From: Lycium barbarum
Taxonomy: Eukaryota > Streptophyta > Magnoliopsida > Solanales > Solanaceae
DNA length: 64,000 bases
Assembly (NCBI RefSeq): GCF_019175385.1
Contig: NC_083343.1
Span: 54,458,457-54,522,456, forward strand
Direction of reading: 5' to 3'
Notes under the pieces: generated by a model
What the model was told of the DNA's origin: nothing
The model's input: only the letters and a program-made list of their open reading frames with translations
The model's database searches: none
Translations under genes and position numbers: made by a program
Shown here: positions 3,478 to 61,538 of the stretch, in pieces
Layout of the letters: the number at the start of each line of letters is the position of its first letter
How positions within the stretch are numbered: position 1 is the stretch's first letter

Positions 3478-3884
3478 GTTACATAAATGTCGTAAATTTC
3501 TTACCAACATTTACCTAAATATCAAAAATAAATGTCGTAAATTCTTTAATGACATTTACCTAAATGTGGCAAAATAAATGTCGTAAATTCCTTACTGACA
3601 TTTACCTAAATGTGGCAAAATAAATGCCGTATGTTCTTTCCGGCAGTTACTTAAATATCGAAAAATAAATGTCGTAAATTTCTTACCTGTATTTTCCTAA
3701 ATGTCGCAAAATAAATGTCGTAAATTTTTTCAGTCATTTATCTAACTGTTAGAAATTTCCTGACACTAAAATTTACGACATTTGATTTAAATGTAAAATA
3801 AAAGTCGGTAAATAGATTTGCGACATTTAAGCAGTTTAATACAACATTTATATAATGTCGTACTATCTTCAGTTTCTTGTAGTG

Positions 3885-6027: not shown

Positions 6028-6028
<1 letters not shown>

Positions 6029-6084
<56 letters not shown>
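6029..6084. repeat. (TA)n microsatellite
   Basis: An uninterrupted run of TA dinucleotides inside the L0 LTR. A shorter TA run lies at about 6128-6142. The open frames across it (long Tyr-Ile strings) are artefacts of the repeat. Confidence 0.95.
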
Positions 6085-6087
<3 letters not shown>

Positions 6088-6292
6088 GCTGACTATCTCG
6101 TCTGAACTGGGCACACACACACCCAAAATATATATATATATACCCAACTGAGCAAGCCGACGGCGCTGCTATGTAGCTGAACAACAAAACAGAGAGCCAA
6201 CAAGGCTACATAACATCCCAACTACATACAACTGTCTACAGACCTCTAGGGAACACGAGCTGCAGAAAAGACAGGACAAGATCCCGTCATAC

Positions 6293-6294
<2 letters not shown>

Positions 6295-6372
<78 letters not shown>
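6295..6372. repeat. (TA)n microsatellite, longer copy
   Basis: A near-perfect TA run of about 78 bp. A further short TA run lies at about 6659-6679, next to the minisatellite. Confidence 0.95.
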
Positions 6373-6376
<4 letters not shown>

Positions 6377-6500
6377 AAATAGCATAAAAAAAGGACTACA
6401 ATTCCGAACCAAGTGGAGCGCACTGACTGTAGCTGAGTGGAAGGCCTACTGAGCTGGATCGTCTATCTGGATACCTGAACCTGCGGGCATGAACACAGCG

Positions 6501-6540
6501 TTCCCAAGCAAAAGGGACGTCAGTACGAAAAAATGTACCG
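6501..6540 (-). other. Twin-hairpin motif in L0 LTR
   Basis: In sense (minus) orientation: CGGTAC...GTACTG (one G-U pair), then GTCCC...GGGA within ACGTCCCTTTTGCTTGGGAACG. It lies shortly before a TTCATGCCCGCAG word, as in the other LTR families of the window. Confidence 0.6.
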
Positions 6541-6678
6541 AGTATGTAAGGCAACAAATAACCGAAACTTAACTAAAAATGTAATAATTTGGAGGCCAAA
6601 AGAAATGCTCTGAATATCTCACCTGACCTGTCTCATATGAAATGCATTATAATACTATTATATATATATATATATATA

Positions 6679-6981
6679 TCTCACTGACCAAGTGGCCAGA
6701 CAACTGTAAAATCTCACTAGCCAAGTAGCCAGGCTATATGTCTCACTGACCCGGCGGTCAGGCAATCTGTTTAACTGACCCATAGGCTAGGCATATCTGT
6801 CTCACTGACCCGTAGGCCAGGCAATGTGTCTCACTGAACCGTAGGCCAGGCATATCTGTCTCACTGACCCGTAGGCCAGGCAATCTGTCTCACTGACCCG
6901 TAGGCCAGGCATATCTGTCGCACTGACCAAGTGGCCAGGCTAAAGAAAATGTCTCACAGACCAAGTGGCCAGGCTAAAGAA
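6679..6981 (-). repeat. Minisatellite of about 29-bp units, each a potential stem-loop
   Basis: About ten units of TCTCACTGACCCGTAGGCC-type sequence. In sense (minus) orientation most units read CTGGCC-TACG-GGTCAG, a 6-bp stem closed by a C(TACG)G loop, the cUNCGg tetraloop type known from rRNA. Variant units keep the pairing: CTGACC-GCCG-GGTCAG, CTGGCC-ACTT-GGTCAG and CTGGCT-ACTT-GGCTAG. One or two units have a single mismatch. Confidence 0.85.
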
Positions 6982-8207
6982 AAATATATATGTATATCAT
7001 ACGTATGCTGAAAAACATTGATTTTGTAACATGTCTCTTCTGTCCCTCTATAAACTCAAGGACATAGGGAGGGGATATGGTGTTACACCTTGGAAAATCC
7101 CCCTGTATATGTACAACGAATAGGCTAACAAAGGACATAGTGTATGCGATGTTTTGATGAGTAAGAAATAGTATTTGATAACCCTCAACGAGATTTCAAA
7201 GGCATATAATGCAAGGAAAGAAAGTTGCCAAGGAAAGCAAATCATATGTTGTGTATCGGATAAGAATTTCGAGCAACGAGTCTATGATGGCATAATGATG
7301 TCTTAGAGAAGAGTAATAACGCCCCTAAGAGTGATATTGAGATGTTAAACAAGTGCCAAGAAGGTTCCATAAGGATTGGAGACCAAACAAGTTCCGGAGA
7401 ACTGGACAACATATGGCCAGACATACTGGCCGTATAATATTCACGGACCGTATGTCCAGTCCGTAGATCCAGTCCAGAACAACATCGATCACTGGACCAA
7501 ATATACGGTCCCAACATACGGTCAGTAAAAATTATATGGACCGTATGTTGGTCCGTATAAAGTGGTTCGGCCAGCTCTTGTATTTCAATATAAGGGACCC
7601 TTTTCATTTCATTTTCATTCTATCCTCCACTCCACAAGACAAGAACACTCTAGAATATTCTCCAACATCCATCCACAAGAAAATCAAAGGAAATCAATGA
7701 TCAACAACACCAAATCCATGAATCAAAGTATATGAAACCCAAGTAAAGTTCATCTTCCTCAAAGAAAACCAAAAGAGGTGAGATAGGGTTTTGGTGCTAG
7801 AGGAGAAACTCCACCCAAGACTCGTTCAACCATCATCTAAGGTAAGTTTCATGACTAAACCATGTTGTTTAAGGTATTGGAAGGTTAAGATACTTGAATT
7901 GTAGAAGGACATAAGCAATGGGTCATTAATGAGTGAATAATGTCATGGTTGGATGGTAGTTGGTTTGAATCATGAATGTTGGTGTGTTGTGATTATGAAT
8001 ACGTTATAAATGACGTTTAGGCCATGAAATAAGTATTATATACGAGGAAACGCGATAGTAAGCTATAACCATAAATGTGGAGAAATTGAAGAGAAATGGT
8101 GGATTGTGGTCAATGTATATGAATGATGATTGTTGATTGCAATATTATGAATGTCGTTGTGAGCGTTTGGGAGTTGATATAGAATATGGGAAAATTAGTA
8201 CAAACAA

Positions 8208-9301: not shown

Positions 9302-9970
9302 TGTTCATGTCCACAGGTAGACAGGGAGGAGAGTTTGAGCCAGATTCGTAGTAGCTGTCGGCCGATTGAAAGCACTCCTTTTTTCCAGAGGTTCTCGATT
9401 ATTCTTTTGTGTATATTGTACATGTTGGGCTCGACGGGTGTCACGACCCAGCCCCGTGGGCCGCGACTGGCACCCTACCTGGGTACCCAGACCGAATCAC
9501 ATATAAATTTTCAAATCCAAACTGATTTCCGAATTTTACGAAATCATATCAAACATAATTTATATCAAAATATGTCTTAAGCGGTCGCGCCAAATCAAAA
9601 TACCATATCAAATACAAACTGAGCGGCGGAATAGACATCGCCGGTCAAAGTGCAAACATAAGCATAAGGGCCATTTGGGGCCAGCATAACAAACAGACCG
9701 CTTTAAGACCAGAAAACAAAATCAAACCAACATATACAGGACCCTCACCCCACATATATGACTACAGGCCTCTACGAATTCAAAACAAAGACATATGGCG
9801 AGACAGGGCCCCGCCGTACCCAAATGGTCAAATGTACAGAATATATACAAAGCAAAAGGAGTCTGTACCAAAAGTGGACTCCGGATCAAAGGGGAGTACT
9901 CCGGAATAGCGAAGAGTGAAGCCTACTGCGGAGGGTCACCAATGTCTGTACCTGCGGGTATAAAACGCAG

Positions 9971-10007
9971 CCCCCAAAGAAAGGGGGTCAGTACGAAATA
10001 TGTACTG
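9971..10007 (-). other. Twin-hairpin motif, L2 3' LTR
   Basis: In sense orientation: CAGTAC-ATATTTC-GTACTG, then CCCCC-TTTCTTT-GGGGG, both perfect. Stem two here is all G-C, where L1 has CGTCC/GGACG. The corresponding 5' LTR part was lost in the rearrangement. Confidence 0.7.
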
Positions 10008-10970
10008 AGTATGTAAAGCACGGAGTACAGAAATATGGATCAAAACTAACAGCAAATCAGATAACAAAATGGAATACAAATCGGTATGTCAAAATCCGTA
10101 TCAAAATCATATACGTATATACAATGCAAACGAAATCATGCAAACGCTTAGGAACGTGGTCGCCACTCCGACGCTGGCGCCACACATAGCATAACACCAG
10201 AAGGTTTCAAATCTCCGTACATCCCCGAACACAAACATAATCAGAGGTGAGCGTATCACATCACGAGCCATATCACAGCATAACTCCAAATGGAACACGG
10301 CCCTATGGCGAAGCCTCGGGAACCGTAACACAGCATACGGCCGAATTATTATAAGGCGCACGAATCATAACCGGCCCGGGAACCGGTGAACGAAGTCATA
10401 ATAAGGCACGAGCGGAGTCGTGAGCAAACAAATGCAAATCATACTTCAAAATAGTCTTTCAAAACATAATAGTTTTACAAATCGTTCCATAGCACAAAAT
10501 AAGCGAATACTTAGTCGATACAAAGATCCGTTTCACAAAAGTTTCCAAAATGGTACGTATGGCTCAAACGTAACTTAGCACATTATAATATTCAAAACAT
10601 ATCTCATAGGAGGGAATTCCAGAATCGAAAGTATCATATCAAACTTTATTCACAAAGATAGCCCAATAAGGCAAATAGGGCGTATCGGGGTTAGCGGGCC
10701 CACCTCGAGTCAAATTGAGGTGGCGAACATATTTTCTGAACATTTATAGGCCAAAGGGTCATACATAATCATTTCTAAGTTACCCGACCACATTTCGATA
10801 GGTTTCAGACGAGTGGTGGCATTCTAGCCAAAATGGAGCCCTTAGGCTTCAATTGAATTGAATGAATAGTAACTTTTCTGTGGATCGGGTTTCGAGGAGC
10901 AGGAACGCTCCGGAAGTTCTCATATTCGCCTACCATACTAAGATATGCCAAACGAAGGAGTGGGAAGCTT

Positions 10971-11130
10971 TACATACCTTACAGACGTCGTATGCTCTCC
11001 CAAAAGTCAAGTCCCGTTCCGTCTAAAATCTGCAAATGGTCAAAGTTACCAATTGAGATTCTTAGGCTTAAAAATGCCATTAACTTAATTTTTGCCTACC
11101 GAAATTTCGGCAGCACTTCTCCTATAAATC
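10971..11130 (-). promoter_or_regulatory. L2 3' LTR promoter-like box and 5' splice-site sequence
   Basis: In sense: TTTATAGGAGAAGTGCTGCC, then the palindrome CCGAAATTTCGG, and about 125 bp later GTAAG|GTATGTAAAGC, a strong donor. The 5' LTR copy has the same arrangement (about 17101-17259). Confidence 0.55.
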
Positions 11131-12363
11131 TAACATCCCCGAGACTTAGCTCGGCTCAAAATACAACAACAACAACAGCCCACACATCAACAAACAACAC
11201 AAATCATAATCAAACCACTTTACCTTCAAAGTCCTACCTTATTACCTAAGTTGGCAACTTTTCATTCAAACTTCCAAAACTCCAAATCTATATCCACATC
11301 ATTATATTCATTTACACATTCGCGATTATTCAAACACATCCCAAACATATTCCAAACTATATAAAAAATTATCCAAAATTCATTACTTTCCCTAATTCCT
11401 TCAAGTACATCAAAACTTATAACGAAAGTTCTAACTTGCGTCGTTTAATTCCGAATTCATTAACATCAACTATATGCCACGCTTAAAGTCTTTAACATCC
11501 TAAATATACAATGATATACACAATTATACCAAAGGTATACACTTTCCGATAATGTCCGAAATCATTTTCCAATGCCCATTTAATTCACTAACCAATCATT
11601 TACGTCCTAAGTGTTATAACGACGCCACAAACCAACTAAACAAGATAAGATTCCCATACCTTTGCACTACATATAACTCACGGCCAACATACAATATACA
11701 CACACACCCACGACTTTCTATTTACATCCAAGTTACGGGATTCTCGTCTATTTCCAATCCTTAGCATATTCATATCAATTCTATAACATTAAAGGGGCAA
11801 AATTCTTACCTTTTCTTGAAAACCCGACTTGTCGCAAACGAGGTTCTTGTGCCAAACTAATTATACCCCGTTGAAGAGGGCGTTGAGTACTTCACAACTA
11901 TGTAGAAATTAGGATTTTTGGATCAACAACAAAGCTTGGGAAATTTTTTTCTTTTCTTTTCTAAGTCACGGCCGAACCCCTTATTTCTTGGTGTTCTTGA
12001 ATTTTGATCTTTCTTCTAGATAATTACCACTACAATGTGATATATATCTTCATTAAGGGTCATGTGAAATTCACATGACCACTTAATGTGGACTTGGGCC
12101 ATGGCCGGCCACCCTACTCTTTGGGCCTCAATTTTTGTATTCAATTTTTTTTTCTTGGCCGAATTCATTAAAAATCCCATTTTGTAATTCCCGAAACTAA
12201 TTTTCGAATTTCCAAATTTATCCTCGGCCTTCCCCGATGTCTTGACATTAATGATTCCATAACCAACATGGTCATATGCACAAAAAATCAAAATATTTCC
12301 TTATAACATACAAGTCGTAATTATTTCTCGGTTTCCAATTATACGAAAACACGGGACATAACA

Positions 12364-12384
12364 TTCTCCCCCCCTTAAGAACAT
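12364..12384 (-). other. L2 polypurine tract
   Basis: In sense this is AAGGGGGGGAGAA directly before the 3' LTR start TGTTATG. It is the expected plus-strand primer for second-strand DNA synthesis and fixes the element's orientation. A CATTCGGGGACGAATG inverted word lies just upstream. Confidence 0.8.
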
Positions 12385-12445
12385 TCGTCCCCGAATGTTA
12401 AATTAAGCTTATAAGGTCTTATGATCAAGGCAGGAGTGTTCCTTT

Positions 12446-13900
12446 TTAATAATGACATACATAATTCATTTTATCAATCAACACAACAAACTGAAAAAAA
12501 ATTAGATTACCTGTGGACGTCGGGAACAAGTGAGGGTATCTCCTTTTCATCTCGTCCTCCGCCTCCCAAGTCATCTCCTCCCGATTATTGTTGCGCCACA
12601 GGACTTTGATGGAGGGCACTTCTTTAGTGCGTAGTCTCCGCACCTGTCGATCCAGAATAGATACAGGCTGCTCGTCATATGATAACTGCTCCGTCACCTG
12701 AATGTCATCAACTGGGAATATCCTGGAAGGATCACCAATACATTTCCGCAACATAGACACATGAAACACCGGGTGTACGGCTTCCAAGTCGGATGGTAAG
12801 TCTAGCTCATAGGCGACCTCGCCTATCTTTCGAACGATCTGATACGGCCCAATGTACCGGGGGCTCAACTTACCCTTTCTACCGAATCTCATGACACCCT
12901 TCATGGGCGACACCTTCAGGAATACCCAGTCGCCAATCTGGAACTCTAACGGTCGACGTCGTCTATCTGCATAAGCTTTCTGTCGACTCTGAGCAACCAA
13001 TAACCGTTCTCGAATAAGCTTTACTTTATCTACGGCTTCCTGGATCACATCTGGCCCAATCAGCTTAGTCTCGCCCACGTCAAACCAACCAATAGGAGAT
13101 CTGCATTTCCTGCCATACAGGGCTTCATACGGTGCCATCTGGATGCTGGAGTGATAACTGTTATTATAAGCAAACTCAATAAGCGGCAAATGATCATCCC
13201 AGCTGCCCCTGAAATCAATAACGCAGGCCCGCAACATATCTTCGAGCGTCTGAATAGTGCGCTCGGCCTACCCGTCGGACTGAGGGTGAAAAGCTGTACT
13301 GAGACTCACTTGAGTCCCTAATCCCTCCTGAAATGACCTCCAGAAATTTGCTGTAAACGGGGTACCTCGGTCAGTAATAATAGATATAGGGATTCCGTGA
13401 AGTCTGACTATCTCTCTGATATACAATCTGGCATAGTCCTCAGCCGAATAAGTAGTCCGAACCGGAAGGAAATGGGCTGATTTCGTCAGCCTGTCAACGA
13501 TAACCCAGATAGAGTCGTACCTGCGTGGAGTGCGCGGTAACCCAACAACGAAATCCATATTAATCATCTCCCATTTCCAGGCTGGAATTTCCATCTCCTG
13601 TAATAAACCACCGGGCTTCTGATGCTCGATCTTAACTTGCTGGCAGTTCGGGCACTGACTAACAAACTCAGCAATATCTTTCTTCATGCCGTCCCACCAA
13701 TACAAACACCTGAGATCACGATACATCTTAGTGGAACCAGGATGAACAGAATACCGTGCATTATGTGCCTTGCCCATAATCTGCCGTCGTAAGCCCGCAA
13801 TGTCCGGTACACAGAATCTGTCGTCATACAATAATACTCCTTCAGGCGAGATCTCAAACTAAGTCTTTGCTCTATTAAGGGCCACATCTCTGTACTGAAT
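12446..13900 (-). pseudogene. L2 integrase with chromodomain-like C-terminus (broken)
   Basis: Integrase joins the element's DNA to the chromosome. Visible in order: zinc-binding region (AHNARYSVHPG with the two His, then CPNC), catalytic core with Asp in INMDFVVGLP and in ITDRGTPF, and Glu in the GQAER-type motif. A TAG replaces the Gln just before that Ala-Glu (13268-13270), splitting the protein. The tail has GPY/F text (GPYQIVRKIG) and ends in a chromodomain-like block (LDRQVRRLRTKEV...WEAEDEMKRRYPHLF), which in chromoviruses binds histone marks. Another stop lies near 13862. This is the best-preserved integrase in the window apart from those stops. Confidence 0.85.
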
Positions 13901-13924
13901 CAAAAGAGGATCCTCAAACTGGCG

Positions 13925-14653
13925 CTACTTTACCTCCTGAATAATAGATGACTCAGCAACTGGACGAACAGAAATCCCAGAATCTCCAGAATCCGCCAAA
14001 CGAACTCCGAGGCTGGCCAGCTGACGAATGTCACGAACCAAATCTTTCTTACCCGACGGTACATCAGCCAAGCTGCCCATAGACTTGCGGCTAAGTGCAT
14101 CCGCTACCACATTGGCTTTCCCCGGATGGTACAGAATATCAACGTTGTAATCCTTTAGTAGCTCAAGCCATCTCCGCTGCCGCAGATTTAGTTCCTTCTG
14201 CCTAAAAATATACTGGAGACTCTTATGGTCCGTATAGATATCAACATGGACCCCATATAGATAGTGCCGCCAAATCTTCAAAGCATGAATCACCGCGGCC
14301 AACTCAAGATCATGAGTGGGATAGTTCTTCTCGTGCGGTCTGAGCTGCCGGGAAGCATAGGCTATGACTCGACCGTGCTGCATCAATACACATCCTATCC
14401 CAATACCAGAGGCGTCACAATAGACAACATACCCGTCAGATCCCTCTGGAAGAGCCAAAACTGGTGCTGTAATCAATCTCTCCTTCAGCATCTGAAAGCT
14501 GCGCTCGCAGGCATCTGTCCACTGGAATTTTGCTGCTTTCTGGGTAAGCCTCGTCAGTGGTGCTGCAATAGAAGAAAAATCCTCCACGAACCTGCGATAA
14601 TACCCAGCCAATCCCAGAAAACTGCGCACCTCTGTCGGAGTAGTAGGCCTGGG
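13925..14653 (-). pseudogene. L2 RNase H domain
   Basis: RNase H removes the RNA template during reverse transcription. The segment opens with the RT-connection text [19 protein letters not shown]. Next come the RNase H acidic residues in VVYCDASG, the Glu in HDLELAAV and the Asp in YTDHKSL, and finally the linker [12 protein letters not shown] before integrase. It is continuous for 234 codons between a TAG that separates it from RT (14654-14656) and a TAG at 13925-13927. The catalytic residues look intact. Confidence 0.85.
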
Positions 14654-15448
14654 CTAATTCTGCACAGCCTCAATCTTCCGCGTGTCGACCCGAATACCAT
14701 CTGCGCCGACAATATGGCCCAAGAATGCCACAGAAGTCAACCAGAACTCACACTTAGAGAATTTAGCATATAACTTCTGCTGACGGAGAATGCCAAGTAC
14801 CGTCCTCAAATGATCTGAATGCTCCTCGGCTGATCGCGAGTAAATCAAGATATCATCAATAAACACAATAACAAACATATCCAGAAAAGGCCGAAATACC
14901 CGGTTCATCAGATCCATAAATACTGCTGGAGCATTAGTCAGCCCGAAAGACATAACTCTGAACTCATAATGCCCGTATCGGGTCCTGAAAGCAGTCTTCG
15001 GGATATCTGACTCCCGTACTCGCACCTGATGATAACCTGAGCGCAGATCTATCTTTGAAAAATGCTTAGCACCCTGCAGCTGATCAAACAAATCATCAAT
15101 CCGGGGGAGGGGATATTTATTCTTAATAGTCACCTTATTTAGCTGCCGGTAGTCGATACACATCCGCAGTGACCCATCTTTCTTTCTAACAAACAATACC
15201 GGCGCTCCCCAGGGTAATGTGCTGGGTCTGATAAAGCCCTTATCCAACAAATCTTTCAGCTGCTCCTTCAACTCTTTCAGTTCAGCCGGTGCCATCCTGT
15301 ACGGGGGAATAGATATAGGCTGCGTATCCGGCATCAACTCTATAGTAAAATCAATCTCCCGCTCAGGCGGAAGGCCAGGAAGCTCGTCAGGAAATACATC
15401 TGGAAACTCACTGACGACCGGAACAGACTGAAGGGTAGGTAAGCAGTT
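14654..15448 (-). pseudogene. L2 reverse transcriptase
   Basis: The gypsy RT core is nearly complete: LPPEREIDF lead-in, [16 protein letters not shown], the catalytic Asp in [10 protein letters not shown] and the intact FIDD active site. It ends at a TAG replacing Trp in the text before PRPTTPTE. The frame continues upstream of the first Met to about 15440 ([14 protein letters not shown]), so the Met is internal; the true start lay in gag, which is gone. Left of 15449 the text switches to an inverted copy of this same RT. Confidence 0.88.
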
Positions 15449-16175
15449 TTCAAAGATAGATCTGCGCTCAGGTTATCATCAGGTGCGAGTACGGGAGTCA
15501 GATATCCCGAAGACTGCTTTCAGGACCCGATACGGGCATTATGAGTTCAGAGTTATGTCTTTCGGGCTGACTAATGCTCCAGCAGTATTTATGGATCTGA
15601 TGAACCGGGTATTTCGGCCTTTTCTGGATATGTTTGTTATTGTGTTTATTGATGATATCTTGATTTACTCGCGATCAGTCGAGGAGCATTATTCCGGAGT
15701 ACTCCCCTTTGATCCGGAGTCCACTTTTGGTACAGACTCCTTTTGCTTTGTATATATTCTGTACATTTGACCATTTGGGTACGGCGGGGCCCTGTCTCGC
15801 CATATGTCTTTGTTTTGAATTCGTAGAGGCCTGTAGTCATATATGTGGGGTGAGGGTCCTGTATATGTTGGTTTGATTTCGTTTTCTGGTCTTAAAGCGG
15901 TCTGTTTGTTATGCTGGCCCCAAATGGCCCTTATGCTTATGTTTGCACTTTGACCGGCGATGTCTATTCCGCCGCTCAGTTTGTATTTGATATGGTATTT
16001 TGATTTGGCGCGACTGCTTAAGACATATTTTGATATAAATTATGTTTGATATGATTTCGTAAAATTCGGAAATCAGTTTGGATTTGAAAATTTATATGTG
16101 ATTCGGTCTGGGTACCCAGGTAGGGTGCCAGTCGCGGCCCACGGGGCTGGGTCGTGACAAAAGTGGTATCAAAGC
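15449..16175 (+). other. Inverted RT-LTR-primer-site segment inside L2
   Basis: Read on the plus strand, 15450-15690 repeats L2's own RT ([14 protein letters not shown] to IYSRSVEEH), matching the reverse complement of about 14806-15063. At GAGCATT|ATTCCGG it joins the last 470 bp of an L2 LTR (reverse complement of 9439-9912), which ends GTCGTGACA and is followed by AAAG and a primer site TGGTATCAAAGC. That site then merges into minus-strand LTR text through a short match (ATCAAAGCTGACAGC against ATCAAAACTAACAGC). The junctions show short homologies, as in template switching. Confidence 0.8.
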
Positions 16176-18492
16176 TGACAGCAAATCAGATAACAAAATG
16201 GAGTACAAATCGGTATGTCAAAATCCATATCAAAATCATATACGTATATACAATGCAAACGAAATCATGCAAACGCTTAGGAACGTGGTCGCCACTCCGA
16301 CGCTGGCGCCACACACAACATAACACCAGAAGGTTTCAAATCTCTGTACATCCCCGAACACAAACATAATCAGAGGTGAGCGTATCGCATCACGAGCCAT
16401 ATCACAGCATAACTCCAAATGGAACCCGGCCCTATGGCGAAGCCTCGGGAACCGTAACACAGCATACGACCGAATTATTATAAGGCGCACGAATCATAAC
16501 CGGCCTGGGAACCGGTGAACGAAGTCATAATAAGGCACGAGCGGAGTCGTGAGCAAACAAATGCAAATCATACTTCAAAATAGTCTTTCAAAACATAATA
16601 GTTTTACAAATCGTTCCATAGCACAAAATAAGCGAATACTTAGTCGATACAAAGATCCGTTTCACAAAAGTTTCCAAAATGGTACGTATGGCTCAAACGT
16701 AACTTAGCACATCATAATATTCAAAACATATCTCATAGGAGGGAATTCCAGAATCGAAAGTATCATATCAAACTTTATTCACAAAGATAGTCCAATAAGG
16801 CAAATAGGGCGTATCGGGGTTAGCGGGCCCACCTCGAGTCAAATTGAGGTGGCGAACATATTTTCTGAACATTTATAGGCCAAAGGGTCATACATAATCA
16901 TTTCTAAGTTACCCGACCACATTTCGATAGGTTTCGGACGAGTGGTGGCATTCTAGCCAAAATGGAGCCCTTAGGCTTCAATTGAATTGAATGAATAGTA
17001 ACTTTTCTGTGGATCGGGTTTCGAGGAGCAGGAACGCTCCAGAAGTTCTCATATTCGCCTACCATACTAAGATATGCCAAACGAAGGAGTGGGAAGCTTT
17101 ACATACCTTACAGACGTCGTATGCTCTCCCAAAAGTCAAGTCCCGTTCCGTCTAAAATCTGCAAATGGTCAAAGTTACCAATTGAGATTCTTAGGCTTAA
17201 AAATGCCATTAACTTAATTTTTGCCTACCGAAATTTCGGCAGCACTTCCCCTATAAATCTAACATCCCCGAGACTTAGCTCGGCTCAAAATAAAACAACA
17301 ACAACAGCCCACACATCAACAAACAACACAAATCATAATCAAACCACTCTACCTTCAAAGTCCTACCTTATTACCTAAGTTGGCAACTTTTCATTCAAAC
17401 TTCCAAAACTCCAAATCTATATCCACATCATTATATTCATTTACTCATTCGCGATTATTCAAACACATCCCAAACATATTCCAAACTATATACAAAATTA
17501 TCCAAAATTCATTACTTTCCCTAATTCCTTCAAGTACATCAGAACTTATAACGAAAGTTCTAACTTGTGTCGTTTCATTCCGAATTCATTAACATCAACT
17601 ATATGCCACGCTTAAAGTCTTTAACATCCTAAATATACAATGATATACACAATTATACCAAAGGTATACACTTTCCGATAATGTCCGAAATCATTTTTCA
17701 ATGCCCATTTAATTCACTAACCAATCATTTACGTCCTAAGTGTTATAACGACGCCACAAACCAACTAAACAAGATAAGATTCCCATACCTTTGCACTACA
17801 TATAACTCACGGCCAACATACAATATACACACACACCCACGGCTTTCTATTTACATCCAAGTTACGGGATTCTCGTCTATTTCCAATCCTTAGCATATTC
17901 ATATCAATTCTATAACATTAAAGGGGCAAAATTCTTACCTTTTCTTAAAAACCCGACTTGTCGCAAACGAGGTTCTTGTGCCAAACTAATTATACCCCGT
18001 TGAAGAGGGCCTTGAGTACTTCACAACTATGTAGAAATTAGGATTTTTGGATCAACAACAAAGCTTGGGAAATTTTTTTCTTTTCTTTTCTAAGTCACGG
18101 CCGAACCCCTTATTTCTTGGTGTTCTTGAATTTTGATCTTTCTTCTAGATAATTACCACTACAATGTGATATATATCTTCATTAAGGGTCATGTGAAATT
18201 CACATGACCACTTAATGTGGACGTGGGCCATGGCCGGCCACCCTACTCTTTGAGCCTCAATTTTTGTATTCAATTTTTTTTTCTTGGCCCAATTCATTAA
18301 AAGTCCCGTTTTGTAATTCCCGAAACTAATTTTCGAAATTCCAAATTTATCCTCGGCCTTCCCCGATGTCTTGACATTAATGATTCCATAACCAACATGG
18401 TCATATGCACAAAAAATCAAAATATTTCCTTATAACATACAAGTCGTAATTATTTCTCGGTTTCCAATTATACGAAAACACGGGACATAACA
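16176..18492 (-). repeat. L2 5' LTR lacking its last ~600 bp
   Basis: The text is a near-identical copy of 10044-12363 of the 3' LTR, with scattered single-base differences. The missing U5-side end is partly present, inverted, at 15690-16159; about 130 bp (equivalent of 9912-10044) is gone. The promoter-like box and donor are retained near 17224-17259 and 17101. Confidence 0.88.
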
Positions 18493-18842: not shown

Positions 18843-18883
18843 TCTTGTTTATGGTATGTTGCGCACCACATCAATAAACAAGA
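18843..18883 (+). other. L1 leader stem-loop with palindromic TGCGCA loop
   Basis: A perfect outer stem TCTTGTTTAT/ATAAACAAGA encloses an inner GGTATG/CACATC stem (one G-U, one mismatch) and an 8-base loop TTGCGCAC. The loop holds the self-complementary TGCGCA. It lies about 45 bases after the primer site, where retroviruses place dimerisation and packaging signals. Confidence 0.6.
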
Positions 18884-34846: not shown

Positions 34847-34941
34847 GTCATAAGAGAGCAGTTCCTCTTAGGGCTATCTGTGAGCCGTGTCTAGTAGAGT
34901 CTTGTTTATAGGTTTGCGGTGCACCACACTTATAAACAAGA
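34847..34941 (+). other. E0 decayed primer site and leader stem-loop
   Basis: The primer site reads GTCATAAGAGAGCAG, several changes from TGGTATCAGAGC. The stem-loop (34900-34941) is nonetheless well kept: TCTTGTTTATA/TATAAACAAGA is perfect, the inner stem GGTTTG/CACACT is partial, and the loop CGGTGCAC holds the self-complementary GTGCAC. Confidence 0.6.
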
Positions 34942-37979: not shown

Positions 37980-38074
37980 TGGTATCAGAGCAGTTCAATC
38001 CTAGGAAGTGTCTACGAGCAGTGTCTAGTAGAGTCTTGTTTATGGTGTGTTGCACGCCACACCTATAAACAGGA
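37980..38074 (+). other. A primer site and leader stem-loop
   Basis: A perfect TGGTATCAGAGC is followed by the stem-loop at 38034-38074: outer TCTTGTTTAT/ATAAACAGGA (one G-U), inner GGTGTG/CACACC perfect, loop TTGCACGC with only a 4-base palindrome TGCA. The inner stem is G-C where C has A-T at the same pair. Confidence 0.65.
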
Positions 38075-41000
38075 GGCTACAGGGCATTTAGGAAGGTTAC
38101 TCTTCTTTCATCTCTAAGATTGTGCGATACAGCTAAGCCATAGGAAATGAGATTCCATAGACTAAGCCCTGATTGCAGCAGAAAAACGGTATTGGCAGAA
38201 AAAAGTGATTGATGACATTGAAAGTTACGGAAGTAAGCCCCTTCGTTGAGGCTATGTTATCGGAATATGTATTTATATGATAATGGATTGATTGTCTTAG
38301 AGGTAAGTTAGTGTATGTATAACAGAGGAATTGACAAAAGGTATCTCTTGATGATAAGTTCATTTATAAGTTTGTGAACTAAACAAATTGAATGAATCAG
38401 AACAAAGGTAAGCGACGGTACGAAAGATGTGTGTCGAGTAAGGTAAGAATATTGAGGTATGATTGAAATGTAAAGCTGAAGGATGAACGGGAAATTAAAT
38501 AGGAAGGGATAATAGGGCATATCGCTAAAGGATCAGGTACATCTCGAAGTGTGATATATGAGGTAAGTTTAGCTATCTTTGTGCTTTTACTTTAAAATGG
38601 GAGCCCTGTGTGGCTGAGATATGTCATACATATATATTGGCCCTATGAGGCATTGTTGGTATTTGCTGCGTGCAGGTTTTGGGATAGTAAGAAATATAGA
38701 GGAAACTCCGCTGAAATTTTCCTCGAATCTAAAGGAGATAAGATGTAAGCTTGTAATATGTCCTAACGGGAAAAGATGTCGTGCAAAAATTAATGGCAGG
38801 ACGAGATTAAGTTAGGAGTATCGTTAACAACTACAAGAGATGAGTTAAATACTATTGAATTGATAGTAATGGTAATTATAAGATCGACATTGATACGGTA
38901 AAGAGAAATGCTAGTGTAAATTAGGGAGACTGGTAGTGCTAAAACACGACAGAGGAGAGGAATGGTAGCTCTAATAGAGTGTGATACTGGAGTATTGATT
39001 GGATGGATAAGCACGAGTAAGATAAGATAAGTCTATTAGCAAAATAAAGTAATAGCATGACTGAGGCAGGGGTATGAAATACGAAGGGGTATAATGAATG
39101 TGAATCCATTGGTAAAACAACTTATATGGTAAGTGTAATGGGGCTGATTAGAAAGAGTAACAGGTTGAGTATGCTTACTTCGCAAGGTTTATTCTATTTT
39201 ACGAGCAGGCTTGCGAACGAGGTAAAGAAGTGTCACTATATAGCGTTGATTATGATCAAGATATAATGAGAGCATGGCAAGAACTGTAATACAATGTAAG
39301 TAAAGTATAGTGAGGTAACGACTAAAGATGTGACATGTTCTATATGAATAAAGAATGAATGCAAGTGTGAAACCAGCAAGCGAGCCATGGGGCAGTAGAT
39401 AAGAATGCTTATAAGACCTTGTTAGAAAATAATAGCATAGAGGTTTCGCAATGACAGAAAAGATAGCAAGCAAAATCGAAAAAGGAATCAGAGAAATGTG
39501 ATATGGCAAAGTAGTAGTAGTTTGTGATTTGTCTAATCGAGAGAATGAGTGATATTTTTAGTTGGATGTAAAAGACCAAGACTACAGAAAGATGAATAAC
39601 GAAATTGGACGATTGTTAGGAAAAAAGGATCAACACAATAAGGATGAGAGGGGATGATCAGAATGAACAGAATAAGTTTTGGAAGCGAAGAATGGATGTA
39701 CAAGGGTAGTATATTCTAAAGGACAAAGCGGTACTAAGTTAAGAATAGGGTTCCTCCTGTGAAGAATAAAGGATTGATTATAAAACGGGAGGAAATAAGA
39801 TAAATTAAGGAGGAAAGAATGTAAACAAATAAGAATGGGAATAGAAAGAGAAGGAAATGCGCTGCAAAGTACACGCGGTTAAGAAGTTGTCGTGTTATGA
39901 TTAAAGGAAGATGCATCTCCTACGAATATCCTATACCAAGTTAGAACGAGTAAAGTATATGAAGTAATGAGTTGAAAAGAAAAAGGTGGCCATAAGTTAT
40001 GAGTTTACCGTACGACGATAAAGCTATAAGGCAAAGCTATCATCAACGACAAATACAATATGATTATGATTGGTTTTGAAATCAATGTTGAGTGCAACAC
40101 AAGAGTAAAAGAGTATGAGGCATAATGGGTATTAGTTGCGCCTGAGACTTAGGCCCTGGAAAACAAAGATGACGTTACAAGTGAACTTTGAGCACCGAAG
40201 AAGATGGAAAGTGACATTGCATGGATCGTATGGATAACTAGACATACTATTATTGTGAGCATCCCTATGGGACAAAAGTTGTTAATTGGAGCGGATTTAG
40301 ACATTGACTCATAACTACCAGATGAGATAAGTAAAATACATCCTTGTTCGGATTGCTATGTCGGTTGTATTACTTGATTACAAAACTGCAAGATGAGTAT
40401 GTTAAGACTTCACACATGAATTATCGTAGCTATAAATTATGGGAAATGGCATGAATAAGATGTAGTATAGTAAGGGATATATGAATTCAAGATTTGAAGG
40501 TGAGGCAACGGATTTGAGAATGGTACAAGTAAAACCCTTAAAGGGGGGAAGCGAGTAAAGAGAATACAATGTAAATATTGAAACGATGGACCCTAAGATG
40601 TGACAGATATAGACTCTAAAACAAAGAGTGAGAGTTACGCAGAAATGAGTCTAATAACTAGTAAATAAACGAACACGAATTGAGCAGGCATCGAAGACTG
40701 TACTGGAAATCATTCGCGAAGACCTTGAACCATGTGACATTGAGAGCAAATAACTCAGGGGATATTGTAAAAGATAGCGATGCTATATTAGAATAGAGGC
40801 AAAGGCACTAACGGTAGAGTCGTTGTTAATGATATTGCGATTTATAAGCGATAATTAAGAAAGGCACCTAAGGTTTTCTATAGTAGAACATAAGATATGA
40901 TAATCAAGGGAAAAATAAAGGAAGGAAGAGAGCATGACGAGATAAGTTACTACAGATAGACAAAAGAGTTTTGGTATGTATGACACCGAGGCTTGTCGTG

Positions 41001-50680: not shown

Positions 50681-51558
50681 CTAACGATTGCGATCACCCT
50701 GAGATCCTCCATGACTAAAATTACCAGCAGACTTAGCCCTCTTGCTGAACTCTCTATCTTTTTGATTCTGCAGGGCTTCTTCTTCCTTCATTCTTGTCTC
50801 GTTACCTTTCCCGAATGCCAGTATCTTGGAAATAGTCACCTTTTCATTCTGAGCAGCTGTGTTGGCATCTCTGTGCAACTCGAGTTTAAGCCCAAGTACA
50901 AATCTTCTAACCACGGCTCTCATATCAGGAACCATGTGAGGGGCATATCTGGACAATGACACAAACTTAAGGTAATAGTCCTGAACAGTCATGTCTTTTT
51001 CCTTAGATTCTCAAACTCTATAGCCTTGGCTTCTCTAACTTCAATTGGCATGAAATGCTCAATAAAAACGTCTGCAAATTCATCCCAAGTAGCAGAAGGT
51101 GCATACTCCCCTCGGGACTGTTCCCATGTCTCATACCAAATATGGGCCACATCTTGTAGCTGGAAAGCTCCGAGTTCTGATGCCTCTGTATCAGTAGCAT
51201 GCATCATATGAAATATTTTCTGGAGTCCATCAATGAAATTCTGGGGGTCTTCCTCCTTCTTTGACCCTCTGAACACTGGCGGCTTCATCCGTATAAACTC
51301 CTGAGTCCTAGAACTATTTTGACCCACTAATAGCACCTGAGCTAGGGGCCATTTCCTGTCGCTGGGCCTGATTTGCCAAAATTTGAGTGAGCAGCTGAAT
51401 AGCTCCTCTAACATCTGCATCCGAAGTATTGGGAGGCGTAGCAGCGGCATTAGCTGTGGCAGCTGCCTGGCCTGAGTGCCCCCTTCTGTTGCTGCGTCAA
51501 CGGTAGCCCTCTGGCTAGTAGCCGTATTTTTCTTGTTGTACTTCCTTTTTGGAGCCAT
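50681..51558 (-). pseudogene. B gag (two frames)
   Basis: It starts MAPKRKYNKKNTATSQR two bases after an acceptor-like ATTCCAG. The capsid core is recognisable: FIRMKPPVFRGS, DPQNFIDGLQKIFHMMHAT, VAHIWYETWEQSRGEYAPSATWDEF, FIEHFMPIEVREAKA. At ENLRKK the frame shifts into MTVQDYYLKFVSLSRYAPHMV...RRFVLGL and a Lys/Glu-rich segment ending GGSQGDRNR, followed by a stop. The middle of the N-terminal region (LLRLPILRMQML...) is shifted relative to relatives and may contain a compensated frameshift. Confidence 0.85.
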
Positions 51559-51774
51559 TTCTGGAATACGTAATTCACACGAGTTAGGAGAATTCCTAAA
51601 AGTGTTACTCTATCTGCACGAACTAGAGTATGAAAGAAGTGAAACAAATCCTGAATGTCTTGGTGGTCAACTGTATATATATGTGGGGCCCTCACACATA
51701 TAAAAAAGACCCCACTGGACACGGCGTCATAGACTCCCTAAAACACTTGAACCTAGCGCTCTGATACCAAGATT
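51559..51774 (-). other. B leader: primer site, stem-loop with GGGCCC loop, acceptor-like site
   Basis: Primer site TGGTATCAGAGC in sense (51758-51769) after a short spacer. At 51678-51702 a perfect 8-bp stem TATATGTG/CACATATA encloses a 9-base loop TGAGGGCCC with the self-complementary GGGCCC. The flanking text (GGAGTCTATGACGCCGTGTCCAG) is recognisably the same leader as in L1, although the stem bases are entirely different. ATTCCAG ends two bases before the gag ATG. Confidence 0.65.
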
Positions 51775-57014: not shown

Positions 57015-57635
57015 CTGCGTTCATGCCCGCAGGTACAGACGCTCGTTTCGGAGATCCGCCAGCCTAGGATATCTATTCAGCTACTTTGAAGTGCTCCTTT
57101 GTTCCGGAGCCTAGCTTGTGGTGTAACTCCCTTTTGTTGTATATGTATGTGTCTATTTGGGGTACGGCGGGGCCCTGTCCCGTCATATGATACTGTCATC
57201 ACTCTTAGAGGTCTGTGGACACATGTGTGGGTATGTATATAGTTGCTGTTTCGTTGTGTGGATATGACTTATGTTTGGGGCGTACCCATTCGTAGTGGCA
57301 GCCTTGTCGGCTTGCGTGTATATACATATGTTTGGGATGTTGTGTGTAGTGGAGGCCTTGTCGGCCTGCGTAGCTATATATATATATTTGTTGTGGGAGC
57401 TGTGTATAGTGATAGCCTTACCGGCTTATGTGCGATATAAACTGTGAAAGCTGTAACACCTTAGGAGACAGGTGGCTTTGATATGCATATATGTGACAGC
57501 TTTAAAAATAACGTCTTGCCTTTGTATACGAATAGGACCTCGATATGCTAGTTGTGGATGATTATAGTTAACAGGTGATATGAGTGTCCAACTCTGGCAC
57601 TAGTCACGGCCTACGGGGTTGGGTCATGACAAAAG

Positions 57636-57730
57636 TGGTATCAGAGCGGTTCAATCCTCGGAGTGTCTACAGACCGTGTCGAGTAGAGTCTTGTTTATCG
57701 ATGTGTTGTGCACCACATCTATAAACAGGA
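57636..57730 (+). other. C primer site and leader stem-loop with GTGCAC loop
   Basis: Perfect TGGTATCAGAGC, then at 57689-57730 an outer stem TCTTGTTTAT/ATAAACAGGA, a perfect inner stem GATGTG/CACATC and the 8-base loop TTGTGCAC with the self-complementary GTGCAC. Compared with A (GGTGTG/CACACC) one pair has changed on both sides. Confidence 0.7.
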
Positions 57731-60700
57731 AGCTACAGGACATTTAGGATGTTACTTTTCTTTCATATCTAAGATCGTGCGATAGAGCCCATCCATAGGA
57801 AATGAAATTCCTTTTACTAACCCTTGATTTCAGCTGAAGAACGGCATCGACAGAAGAAAGTGACTGATGATATTGGAAGCTACACAGTACCCAGGTAAGC
57901 AATGGTATGAAAGATGTATGTTGGGTAAGGTATTTGAAGTACGATTGAAATATAAAGTTGAAGATTGAAAGGGAAAGTAAACAGGAAAGTATAATAGGTG
58001 CAGTTTGAGTTAGACATGTGAGGTAAGTCTCGACATCTTTATACTTTTACTTGAAATTGTTAGACTTGTGTGGCTATGATATGATATGATGTATACGTAT
58101 ATATGTTGGCCCTGTGAGGCATTGTTGGTATTTCCTGCGTGCAGGTTTTGCGATAGTAAGAAGTACAGAGGAACCACTGACCAAATTTTCCCAGAAATAT
58201 AAAAAGGAGAATGAGATATAAGTTCATAATATATCTTGAAAGTCGATACCGATAAGGTAAATTTATTATGTTGGATTAAAGCTTAAGAGATACCCTCCAT
58301 GTCATTCGTAAGAAGCATCATCCTTATTTGGGAAATTTTATTTCGAGAAAGCATATATGAGCAGCGAATTCGCAATTCATTTAAACGGACCAGAATACGT
58401 TCCAACCACATTTTGCTTTAGAAAAAGCCTATGTTGAAGGGAAAAAATGTCCGGCGATTAAGTTTCACCTTATTGGAAGAATACAAAGCGTATGACAAGC
58501 AGTTGGGAATGAAATGATTCGCTCACGACTCAAAAATAAATATGGAGTTAAACTATGTGAATCAAGCACTAAGAAGTTCTGTGGTGCTTGTCGGACTCTA
58601 GTTTTCTTCTGCTGGTAGTTGGAGAATGCCTGATAGTAAAATTTTATCAGTTCTCATCAACTAATTGGAGATGGAATTTATGGAAGAAAAACTTAACCTT
58701 GTGGGCTGTCTAGGATCATATATTTCATGTGTTGTTGGTGAAATACTACAGATGATCTAGGAAAAGGTGGCAACTCGTAACAGAACATTTTATTGAGGTA
58801 TCGAGTGAACCGATAAGCAGGGATAAATTACGACGAGTTACAATTAAAAAAGAGTAACAGTATGATTGAGATAAAAGTATAGAAGAGGAAGAGTTATACC
58901 AAATCTTGAGGGTGTTGATAAGACAACTTGTGAGATATTAAGGATAGGATTGATTAGAAAGGGCGAAGGGTCAAGTACACCTAGTCCGCAGAGTGTAATT
59001 AAAACATAAAAGAATCGTGAATAAGATTAAGAAGTATTACGTCATAGGATGGATTACGAACAGGATGTACTGTGAACACCATAAGGATTGCTATAGAAAT
59101 GAGAAAAGCCTAGCAAGGAAGAAACTAAAGGAAATGGTGTAACTAGTGTGAAATGGTAATCGGATGTAGAACGAATAAGGAAGAACTTACAAGGTCCTAC
59201 AGGGAAAGTTCAGAATAAAATTCAAGTGGTAACAAAAGTGAAAGTGCGCACAGGAAGAGATGGGGGTTAATAGAAGGAAGAAGATAAGAAGAAAGCGAGT
59301 GGGATTACAGTGTAGCAATGTGTTATGGTGTGTATAGCTGAGAAAATGAGTTATATAAGCGATAGAATTGTGAAAGACTGAACCAAAGGAAGATGAGCAA
59401 CAAGACAGAACAAATACCAGAAATGACTAGTGTGATAAGAATAAAAAGAGATAAACAGAATATGATTTGAAAATGAGGAAGGGCTTATGTAGAAGTTGTG
59501 TTTTCTGAAAGATACGGGAATAGCATGAGATTCCTTGTGCACAAAATAAAAGATGGACGTAGACTGGAGAAATGAAAGGAATACTAAAGGAAGTACCCAA
59601 GACAGATGTAATTAATTGAGTATGAGTATAGAATAAAAGGGAAACATATAGTTATGGACTTAGAGATGTAGTGCGACGAAACGATGCTAAGACAAGACCA
59701 CTATTAAGACAAATTCGATATGATTTCGAGTAAGTTAGAAGTTAGCATTTGATATACAACAAGAGAGAGATAGTATGAGGCATAAAAGAGTACTGCGTAT
59801 ATGTGACTTCACCTCGGGAATAGTGAAATGTTTAAAGGACAAGGATTGTGGATTTGCGAAACAACTGATGTATTGTGAATTTATTAGAGGAAACAAATGA
59901 TATCCGTTGGGATAAAGATATTGTTATAAGAAAGCTTGGGACATTTATCATCAGAATATAAGTGCTACCTAATTGGGAATTTAAAACGACTATAAACACT
60001 AGCTCATTACTGATCGGAATAAATGGAATGTGACTTTGGATAAATTGTTACATTACTTACATTACTTGAGTACCAACCATCAAATAAGATTTTGTACCAT
60101 ATAATCGAGAGTTCTCATCGCCTCGTGATTTTGTTAAGGTCTCGTACGAAGATAATCAAGTTATAGATTATAAAGAAAAGACATGGATACGGTGTAAGTA
60201 CAACCCCAAAGGGGGGAAGCGGGTGAAAGTAAAGTAAGTATAAATGGAAACAATTGACACTGCAACAAGTTTAATGTGAATTCTTAAACTTTAAGTGAGA
60301 TCCCTTGCAGAAACAAGTTAGTAAGATTTGAAGGCCAGCAATAAGTGGATAGAAGTCAAGATGGTATTGGAGACAGTGCTGAGAATTATTGGTAGGGGTC
60401 TTGGATAATATGACATCAGAACGTGGATGCTTGTAAAAAGGAAGAATACGACAAGAGAATGGTAACGAGTAACTTAAAGATATTATAAAAGATAGCAAGG
60501 CTATACTGGATTAGAGGTTAAGATATTGACAACAGAGTTATTGGCTAATGATATTGTGACATATAAGTAGCAAAGGAGAAAGGATAGGAAATCTCTCCTA
60601 TAGCAAGTTATGAGAAAACCAAATGGTGAATAGAGGAAGGGAAAGGAGTATGGCGAAATAGACAGCAAGTGAGTGATAGTACAATAAGATATGTAAAACA

Positions 60701-61525
60701 GGATGAACCAGGAAAAGGAAGGACTGTGACTATGATTAGATACCCTTTATACAAATTGTACAAGAATAGTTATTCAACCTACAAATACTTGTATGCTGAG
60801 GATAAGACCAAGTAAGTACTTGATAAAAAGGGTAGGAATTCAGTAACAACAGTGCGGTTGCAATATTTCGGATACGTCAAAGAAAGGTGTAAGGTGGTTT
60901 AAGGCAAAACTACAGAGACATCATTAGTACTGAGAGCAAAAGCCAAAATAGGGCCCCGATACTATTGAAAGGTAGGAAGGAAGAATGTAAGGTAAAGCAT
61001 AAAGACTAGTGAGACGACGCTAAGATATATTCTGGGCTGATTTGAGTACCTACACATACTCGTGTAAAGCTTGCAATAAGATGCATGATAGGAGAACTAA
61101 GAGCAAATCTGACTAAAGGGGCGATAGAAGAGTTGAATAAAAAATAGAGAAACAACACGAGATAATATGCTTAAAGTGTTATAAGTGGGATTAAGGGAAA
61201 TTGCGAAATGGTTTAAGTGAGATGGTCAGAACGAGCTAGTTACTAGAAGACAGTGAATTTAACGAGAACGAGCAAGAAGAACTCGACTTAAGCTTCAAGT
61301 ATAGATGGATATGGTAAGTTGCAGTCGATTACGGAGGTAGCTAAATCATGTCTACTATATTTGGAAGATCAATATTAACAGATGTCAGGTGGAGAATGGC
61401 ATTAGGCTAGGTAAATAAAGGCACAGCATGATAGATGAGTTCAAGTTACAAGTGATTCGTTATAAGATCACCAGAAGCAGTATACTTATGTAGGACTAAT
61501 TTGACATTCGGGAACGAATGTTCCT
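57731..61525 (+). other. C interior, purine-rich and non-coding
   Basis: It starts with the shared leader (GCTACAGGACATTTAGG) and an acceptor-like CCCTTGATTTCAG (57821-57833) at the place where L1 begins gag; no ATG frame follows. The module GGTATTTCCTGCGTGCAGG...AGGAACCACTGACC lies near 58130-58200. Beyond that the plus strand is A/G-rich, with no frame longer than about 75 codons. TTCGGGAACGAATG lies just before the polypurine tract. Confidence 0.8.
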
Positions 61526-61538
61526 AAGGGGGGAAGGA
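61526..61538 (+). other. C polypurine tract
   Basis: AAGGGGGGAAGGA abuts TGTTACACCTCG. Confidence 0.85.

Follow-up and report, generated by a model that had tools for sequence, protein, structure and literature searches.

A self-complementary hairpin loop 3' of the primer-binding site: a candidate dimer-initiation element of plant chromoviruses

Why do coding and non-coding LTR retrotransposons of one plant genome carry the same kind of hairpin just behind the primer-binding site (PBS)? The question is posed by a 64,000-nucleotide stretch of Lycium barbarum DNA (the window). The genome to which it belongs comprises 1.67 Gb in 164 contigs and supplied every relative described here. The window is occupied by nested LTR retrotransposons. 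A scan of seven ORFs gave RVT_1, rve and Chromo in L1 and RVT_1, Chromo and Retrotrans_gag in B, all above Pfam cut-offs, with the integrase core lying outside the B scan; reverse transcriptase, integrase and chromodomain, the hallmarks of a plant Ty3/gypsy chromovirus, are all present in L1. The clade label Tekay/Del comes from a first-pass annotation of this DNA, and we take it as putative. Gag itself was identified in B only (gag-like ORF starting at 51558). Element C is non-coding: no ORF of at least 80 aa overlaps 57630-61538. Its LTR-type direct repeats are 97.9% alike and measure at least 2.46 kb, the window end truncating them. As argued below, the hairpin is probably an HIV-like kissing-loop dimer-initiation element of chromovirus genomic RNA.

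Several other structures were noted in passing. A minus-strand element of unusual, rearranged structure (9443-18492) is apparently nested in the 5' LTR of L1 and contains a 470 bp inverted copy (9439-9908 / 15690-16159) and a second inverted pair (14818-15068 / 15440-15690). Short repeats at 3483-3749 and 6672-6983 give self-matches of 81-85%.

Post-PBS hairpins are found in L1, E0, A, C and B at the coordinates and with the loop letters that the first-pass annotation had given (Table 1). They lie 3' of the PBS, which is degenerate in E0, and 5' of the gag-like ORF of B and of the first ORF listed for L1. The core stem of C consists of 10 bp (57689-57698/57721-57730), a 1x1 internal loop and 6 bp (57700-57705/57714-57719). 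The usual loop has 8 nt, namely two unpaired bases followed by a six-base word that adjoins the 3' stem; the 8-9 bases claimed earlier hold to that extent, B having a 1+6 loop that reaches 9 nt if the top pairs open. Judged on 47-48 nt per hairpin with 200 shuffles each, the folds of C, A and E0 are far more stable than those of shuffled sequence, whereas L1 and B individually fold no better than chance. Four of the five loops had been credited with a self-complementary six-mer, which is correct for GTGCAC in C and E0 and for GGGCCC in B; the TGCGCA assigned to L1 is out of register, the in-register word being GCGCAC.

Table 1. Leader features of the five elements
Feature	Position	Strand	Basis or comment
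PBS-leader block of C, with similar blocks in L1, E0 and A	57621..57789	+	sequence comparison
PBS of C, TGGTATCAGAGC	57636..57647	+	exact match; LTR end adjoins upstream; presumably complementary to tRNA-Met
Tentative, still lower helix of C, GTGTC/GACAT (H1)	57663-57667 with 57739-57743	+	fold pairs the upstream GTGTC copy
Extended hairpin of C	57683..57736	+	fold of 57630-57770, z -4.45
Lower helix of C below the core stem, GTAG/CTAC (H2)	57683-57686/57733-57736	+	C's own fold
Core hairpin of C	57689..57730	+	z -4.70; 0/200 shuffles fold as well
Loop word of C, GTGCAC, self-complementary	57708..57713	+	loop 57706-57713
Hairpin of L1 (coding), loop TTGCGCAC, word GCGCAC at 18861-18866	18843..18883	+	z -1.54
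Hairpin of E0, loop CGGTGCAC, word GTGCAC at 34919-34924	34900..34941	+	z -3.55
Hairpin of A, loop TTGCACGC, word GCACGC at 38052-38057	38034..38074	+	z -3.72
Hairpin of B (coding), word GGGCCC at 51691-51686	51678..51702	-	z -0.81

Scanning both strands of the window returned 743 overlapping six-pair hairpins with 7-9 nt loops, 216 of them with loops that end in a six-base palindrome. AT dinucleotide repeats at about 6028-6680 yield nearly all of these, and the raw count, swamped by them, was discarded as a test in favour of the GC-rich cases alone. Among the palindromic-loop hairpins listed, at least four G/C occur in the words of C and B only.

The block around the hairpin is shared more widely than its surroundings. 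The leaders of C and L1 are 81% identical over 172 columns, while the roughly 1 kb 5' and 1.8 kb 3' of them yield nothing at E 1e-3; C-E0 and L1-E0 have no match 3' of the leader and only short ones 5' of it. Similarity extends 5' of the leader in C-A, L1-A and E0-A, and in C-A 3' of it as well. B is less similar to the leaders of C, L1 and E0 (73-78%, the L1 and E0 matches spanning 63-72 columns), L1-B having an additional match of 81 columns 3' of the leader, and a comparison of the A and B leaders gave no match, though the hairpin forms in both. Such sharing between coding and non-coding elements would fit both a cis signal kept by the latter and exchange by recombination. That leaders may have been exchanged through recombination counts against the dimer-initiation reading. 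A second conserved leader word, GATCGTGCGATAGAGC, was seen 3' of the hairpin in C (57773-57788) and L1 (18928-18943), with variants in A (38118-38133) and B (about 51623-51607, minus strand); it is perhaps a further cis signal.

Related copies indicate which loop words are the majority state. With the window copy included, GTGCAC is present in 30/30 C-type leaders, GCGCGC in 20/30 L1-type leaders and GGGCCC in 25/30 B-type leaders, each set being the 30 closest of about 40 matches listed; in the E0 set, the first 20 after the window copy, GTGCAC is present in 14/20. The GCGCAC of L1 and the GCACGC of A each lie one CpG transition from GCGCGC and look like decayed forms of it. For L1 this reading follows from the majority word of its relatives, and for A from its position among GCGCGC copies in a leader tree built without the loop. 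The related copies likewise suggest that the hairpins of L1 and B have decayed. The TGCGCA of L1 was rejected as a functional word; being out of register and set against the GCGCGC of most L1-type leaders, it is a coincidence of register. A group of four C-type leaders on the same strand within 35 kb (G000:C1:94271793-94306752) was observed separately and is possibly a tandem array of the non-coding element.

The breadth of the hairpin within this one genome was sampled with a pattern that fixes the PBS and the downstream word and leaves the hairpin free. PBS + N80-110 + CATTYAGGA has 10,746 + 10,823 = 21,569 genome matches, against 0 for the reversed control; we refer to these as leaders, the hairpin having been verified in those individually read. 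Loops were read in the first 100 matches listed, all from one contig, of which 86 were readable in 80 letters and 14 were not (10 B-like, 4 incomplete). The last six loop bases are palindromic in 74/86 (36 GTGCAC, 28 GCGCGC and 10 GAGCTC), and the remaining 12 are non-palindromic in register, mostly by one or two changes.

At least six palindromes, GTGCAC, GCGCGC, GGGCCC, GGCGCC, GAGCTC and GACGTC, occupy the same loop position. A B-type stem with the loop left free has 2,506 matches, a figure that counts many places twice because both strands match, and controls have 0; among the matches listed, 44 of 62 distinct places (hand count) carry GGGCCC, GCGCGC or GGCGCC, and the others listed include single-step decays and a few unrelated words. 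Genome-wide, these three words occur on the B-type stem 739, 239 and 146 times, respectively. Stems of the same shape and divergent letters include GATATG/CATATC (L113), GGTACG/CGTACT (L132) and GGTACG/CGTACC (L135); leaders L131, L133, L134 and L136 are too decayed for a clean fold. The loop words of L135 and L136 are GACATC and GACCTC, and applying the rule of self-complementarity to them led us to expect a GACGTC parent, a guess that preceded the free-loop search but went unrecorded beforehand. The free-loop GTACG-stem pattern has 1,360 + 1,395 matches (controls 6 + 7), and GACGTC is among those listed; as intact words on this stem, GAGCTC occurs 871 and GACGTC 238 times genome-wide, with 0 in controls. 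Two GACGTC leaders fold into the same hairpin. The loop is self-complementary in the majority of every sampled set except the divergent leaders L131-L136 (3/6); as far as sampled in this genome, relatives do not refute the first-pass proposal.

A single ancestral palindrome, altered by CpG deamination and spread by recombination without selection for self-complementarity, could account for part of this repertoire: GCGCGC and GTGCAC differ by two CpG transitions only, single such steps are seen in L1 and A, and the GCGCGC/GTGCAC pair may still be decay. As an explanation of the whole we consider it very unlikely. GAGCTC, GACGTC, GGGCCC and GGCGCC are set apart from the other words by transversions in matched pairs, which CpG decay as the source of all word changes does not explain; the word has switched between palindromes in three stem types; and by our arithmetic just 9 of the 135 possible double changes of a six-base palindrome leave it palindromic.

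Alternatively, the leader structure might be conserved for another step, such as tRNA primer annealing, ribosome shunting, nuclear export or Gag binding, with the palindrome incidental. The hairpin does lie directly 3' of the PBS, conservation between elements extends into the leader beyond the stem, and in plant pararetroviruses structured leaders are reported to have roles in export and translation (PMC12786077, PMC5902531). These roles need no self-complementarity, yet at least six palindromes share one loop position and, in our reading of the words, are interlinked by steps of two matched changes; we regard this alternative as unlikely.

Covariation was assessed on 141 leaders clustered at 95% identity into 52 rows and aligned by sequence with MAFFT, L137-L141 being left out as unrelated. 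A 54-row set adds two GACGTC copies (L142, L143) chosen for their loop, and a 46-row set removes L131-L136, hand-picked for divergent stems with the loops partly in view. The null comprised 300 simulations that re-place the tree substitutions at random, our own implementation of the reshuffling principle behind R-scape. Five runs were made: 52 rows with pairs at least 3 columns apart, 54 rows with all pairs, 54 rows with a loop-free tree, 52 rows without L142/L143, and 46 rows. The palindrome test was framed with knowledge of the loops.

Palindrome pairs 1-6, 2-5 and 3-4 are standard in 51, 51 and 47 of the 54 rows, with one G-U in each of the first two. Pair 2-5 takes all four Watson-Crick combinations (TA 27, CG 12, AT 8, GC 3, mismatch or wobble 4). 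Over 54 rows the stem pairs score 103.5 in total (null -3.0, sd 23.3; 0/300) and the palindrome sum 47.7 (0/300, or 1/300 when the tree omits the loop columns). Over 52 rows the corresponding values are 88.2 (null -4.6, sd 22.9; 0/300) and 39.2 (0/300), with helices H3, H4, H2 and H1 reached by 2, 4, 8 and 132 of 300 simulations. With 46 rows the stem falls to 24.8 (20/300) and the palindrome to 28.5 (3/300); the core helices H3 and H4 are then reached by 86/300 and 38/300, H2 by 11/300 and H1 by 109/300, the GTGTC helix H1 thus giving no covariation signal in either set. Across the four runs that computed it, the palindrome sum was reached by 0, 1, 0 and 3 of 300 simulations. Judging by the 46-row result, support for the stem depends on the divergent families, that for the palindrome to a lesser degree.

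In none of the five runs does an individual pair reach scan-wide significance. Pair 2-5 ranks first of 7381 in the 52-row run with spaced pairs (E 1.05), second of 6328 in the two 54-row runs (E 2.99 and 4.2), where one pair outside the structure outscores it, and second (E 3.73) and fourth (E 3.96) of 6328 in the 52- and 46-row re-runs. As a single test its p is 1.4e-4 to 6.6e-4, the loops having already been seen before it was framed. The covariation called for by the first-pass annotation is therefore present in the summed stem and palindrome, becomes marginal for the stem in 46 rows and does not reach the level of an individual pair. Only two bases separate loop positions 2 and 5, which are therefore unable to pair within a molecule, and their co-change favours pairing between molecules.

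A smaller, hand-picked alignment of 10 rows without B agrees in outline. Of its 235 cells, 95.7% pair with the palindrome included, against 36-52% for slid partners; both sides have changed in 7/25 stem pairs and 2/3 palindrome pairs. Letter shuffles reached the count of both-side-changed pairs in 2/500 and that of further pair types in 45/500, and RNAalifold recovers the core stem on this set.

The loop geometry also bears on whether the palindrome acts as DNA, as the binding site of a dimeric protein or as a cruciform. The six loop words all have dyad symmetry, beginning with G and ending with C. In the 2+6 loop, however, the axes of stem and word lie one base apart, which leaves no single DNA dyad, and the loop letters are too variable for one protein; on this reading of the sequence, a role as DNA is hardly credible.

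These observations lead us back to the dimer-initiation reading. The layout matches that of a kissing-loop site: 5' to 3', the PBS is followed by a long stem with interruptions, then by one or two free bases and a six-base palindrome that bears G and C, and finally by the coding region; the leader hairpin sits between PBS and gag, its apical word is GC-rich and self-complementary, and self-complementarity is kept as the letters change. Two RNA molecules would meet through the loop word, presented atop the stem behind its one or two unpaired 5' bases, and this contact could later extend into a full duplex because the hairpin arms are complementary too. The six words are stable self-duplexes, though not always the most stable (energy ranks 1, 3, 5, 15, 21 and 27 among 64 palindromes). 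Selection appears to keep hairpin shape and loop self-complementarity rather than letters. RNA dimerisation and its link to packaging are what we infer from this pattern, and non-coding elements would retain the hairpin because they need to be copied in particles made by others. The kissing-loop proposal of the first-pass annotation is in this way partly supported, by the structure and the self-complementary words, within one genome and short of any pair significant scan-wide.

A more speculative extension, possible but doubtful at present, is a kissing code in plant chromoviruses, in which the word is selected yet free to change and six kissing classes favour dimers within a class. If so, the non-coding partners carried in the particles of a given coding element, and the elements that recombine with one another, could depend on word class.

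Outside the genome, the hairpin has no match in Rfam at gathering scores, and pattern searches returned 0 matches in IMG/VR and in plasmid and phage records; five bacterial stretches matched in GTDB were all without a leader and were taken as chance. Among the matches listed in the open-access literature, a scope that omits most subscription papers, we found no description of the hairpin in plant chromoviruses, and a word search for 'dimer' in the main text of a 2025 review of the plant LTR retrotransposon life cycle gave none (PMC12786077). Plant LTR retrotransposons make up much of many plant genomes, and how their RNAs are chosen and paired seems hardly known. A palindrome that changes its letters while staying self-complementary ties plant Ty3/gypsy leaders to retroviral dimerisation in a way that is testable with short RNAs, and the candidate cis signal could explain how non-coding partners are mobilised.

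Palindromic loops are common to retroviral DIS elements. In the SL1/DIS of HIV-1, too, a hairpin lies between PBS and gag, and its loop holds a GC-rich palindrome of six bases preceded by unpaired ones. The HIV-1 DIS loop has 9 nt (2+6+1), whereas the loop here usually has 8 (2+6); its 5' flank is TT, TC, TG, CA, CG, TA, AT or AA rather than purines only; and the words are of more types, CG-centred ones included, in a plant retrotransposon. One group (L105, L109, L126 and a few of the genome-wide sample) has an AA flank and alone resembles HIV-1 on the 5' side, where its loop, AAGCGCGC (AAGTGCGC in L105), comes nearest to that of HIV-1 among those found. By the flank rule of the HIV-1 DIS (PMC5874298), purines flank the palindrome (two 5', one 3') in a 9-nt loop, but most loops read here have 8 nt with TT, TC, TA, CA or AT on the 5' side; this lack of the two 5' purines counts against the dimer-initiation reading. 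As the first-pass annotation had proposed, the words are alike: GCGCGC, GUGCAC and GUGCGC, prevalent in the HIV-1 DIS according to the same excerpts (PMC5874298), all occur here, GTGCGC in 3/141 aligned leaders, possibly through decay.

A second comparison is Ty3 of yeast, of the same Ty3/gypsy superfamily, whose DS/PAL6, CUGCAG inside the GAG ORF, is supported by SHAPE and deletion, with a kissing-loop dimer proposed (PMC11381356). Both systems place a short GC-containing palindrome atop a hairpin near the 5' end; unlike DS/PAL6, the hairpin here precedes the coding region, occurs in many families and accepts different words in its loop. Ty1 belongs to the Copia superfamily. Its palindromes or kissing-loop sites have been proposed, in passages of PMC4974528 and PMC5454406, to join two genomic RNAs. 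In barley, BARE2, which lacks Gag, is said in an excerpt of PMC3735527 to keep 'dimerization and packaging signals'; BARE1/BARE2 differ in being of the Copia superfamily and, like the elements described here, are plant LTR retrotransposons with a non-autonomous partner.
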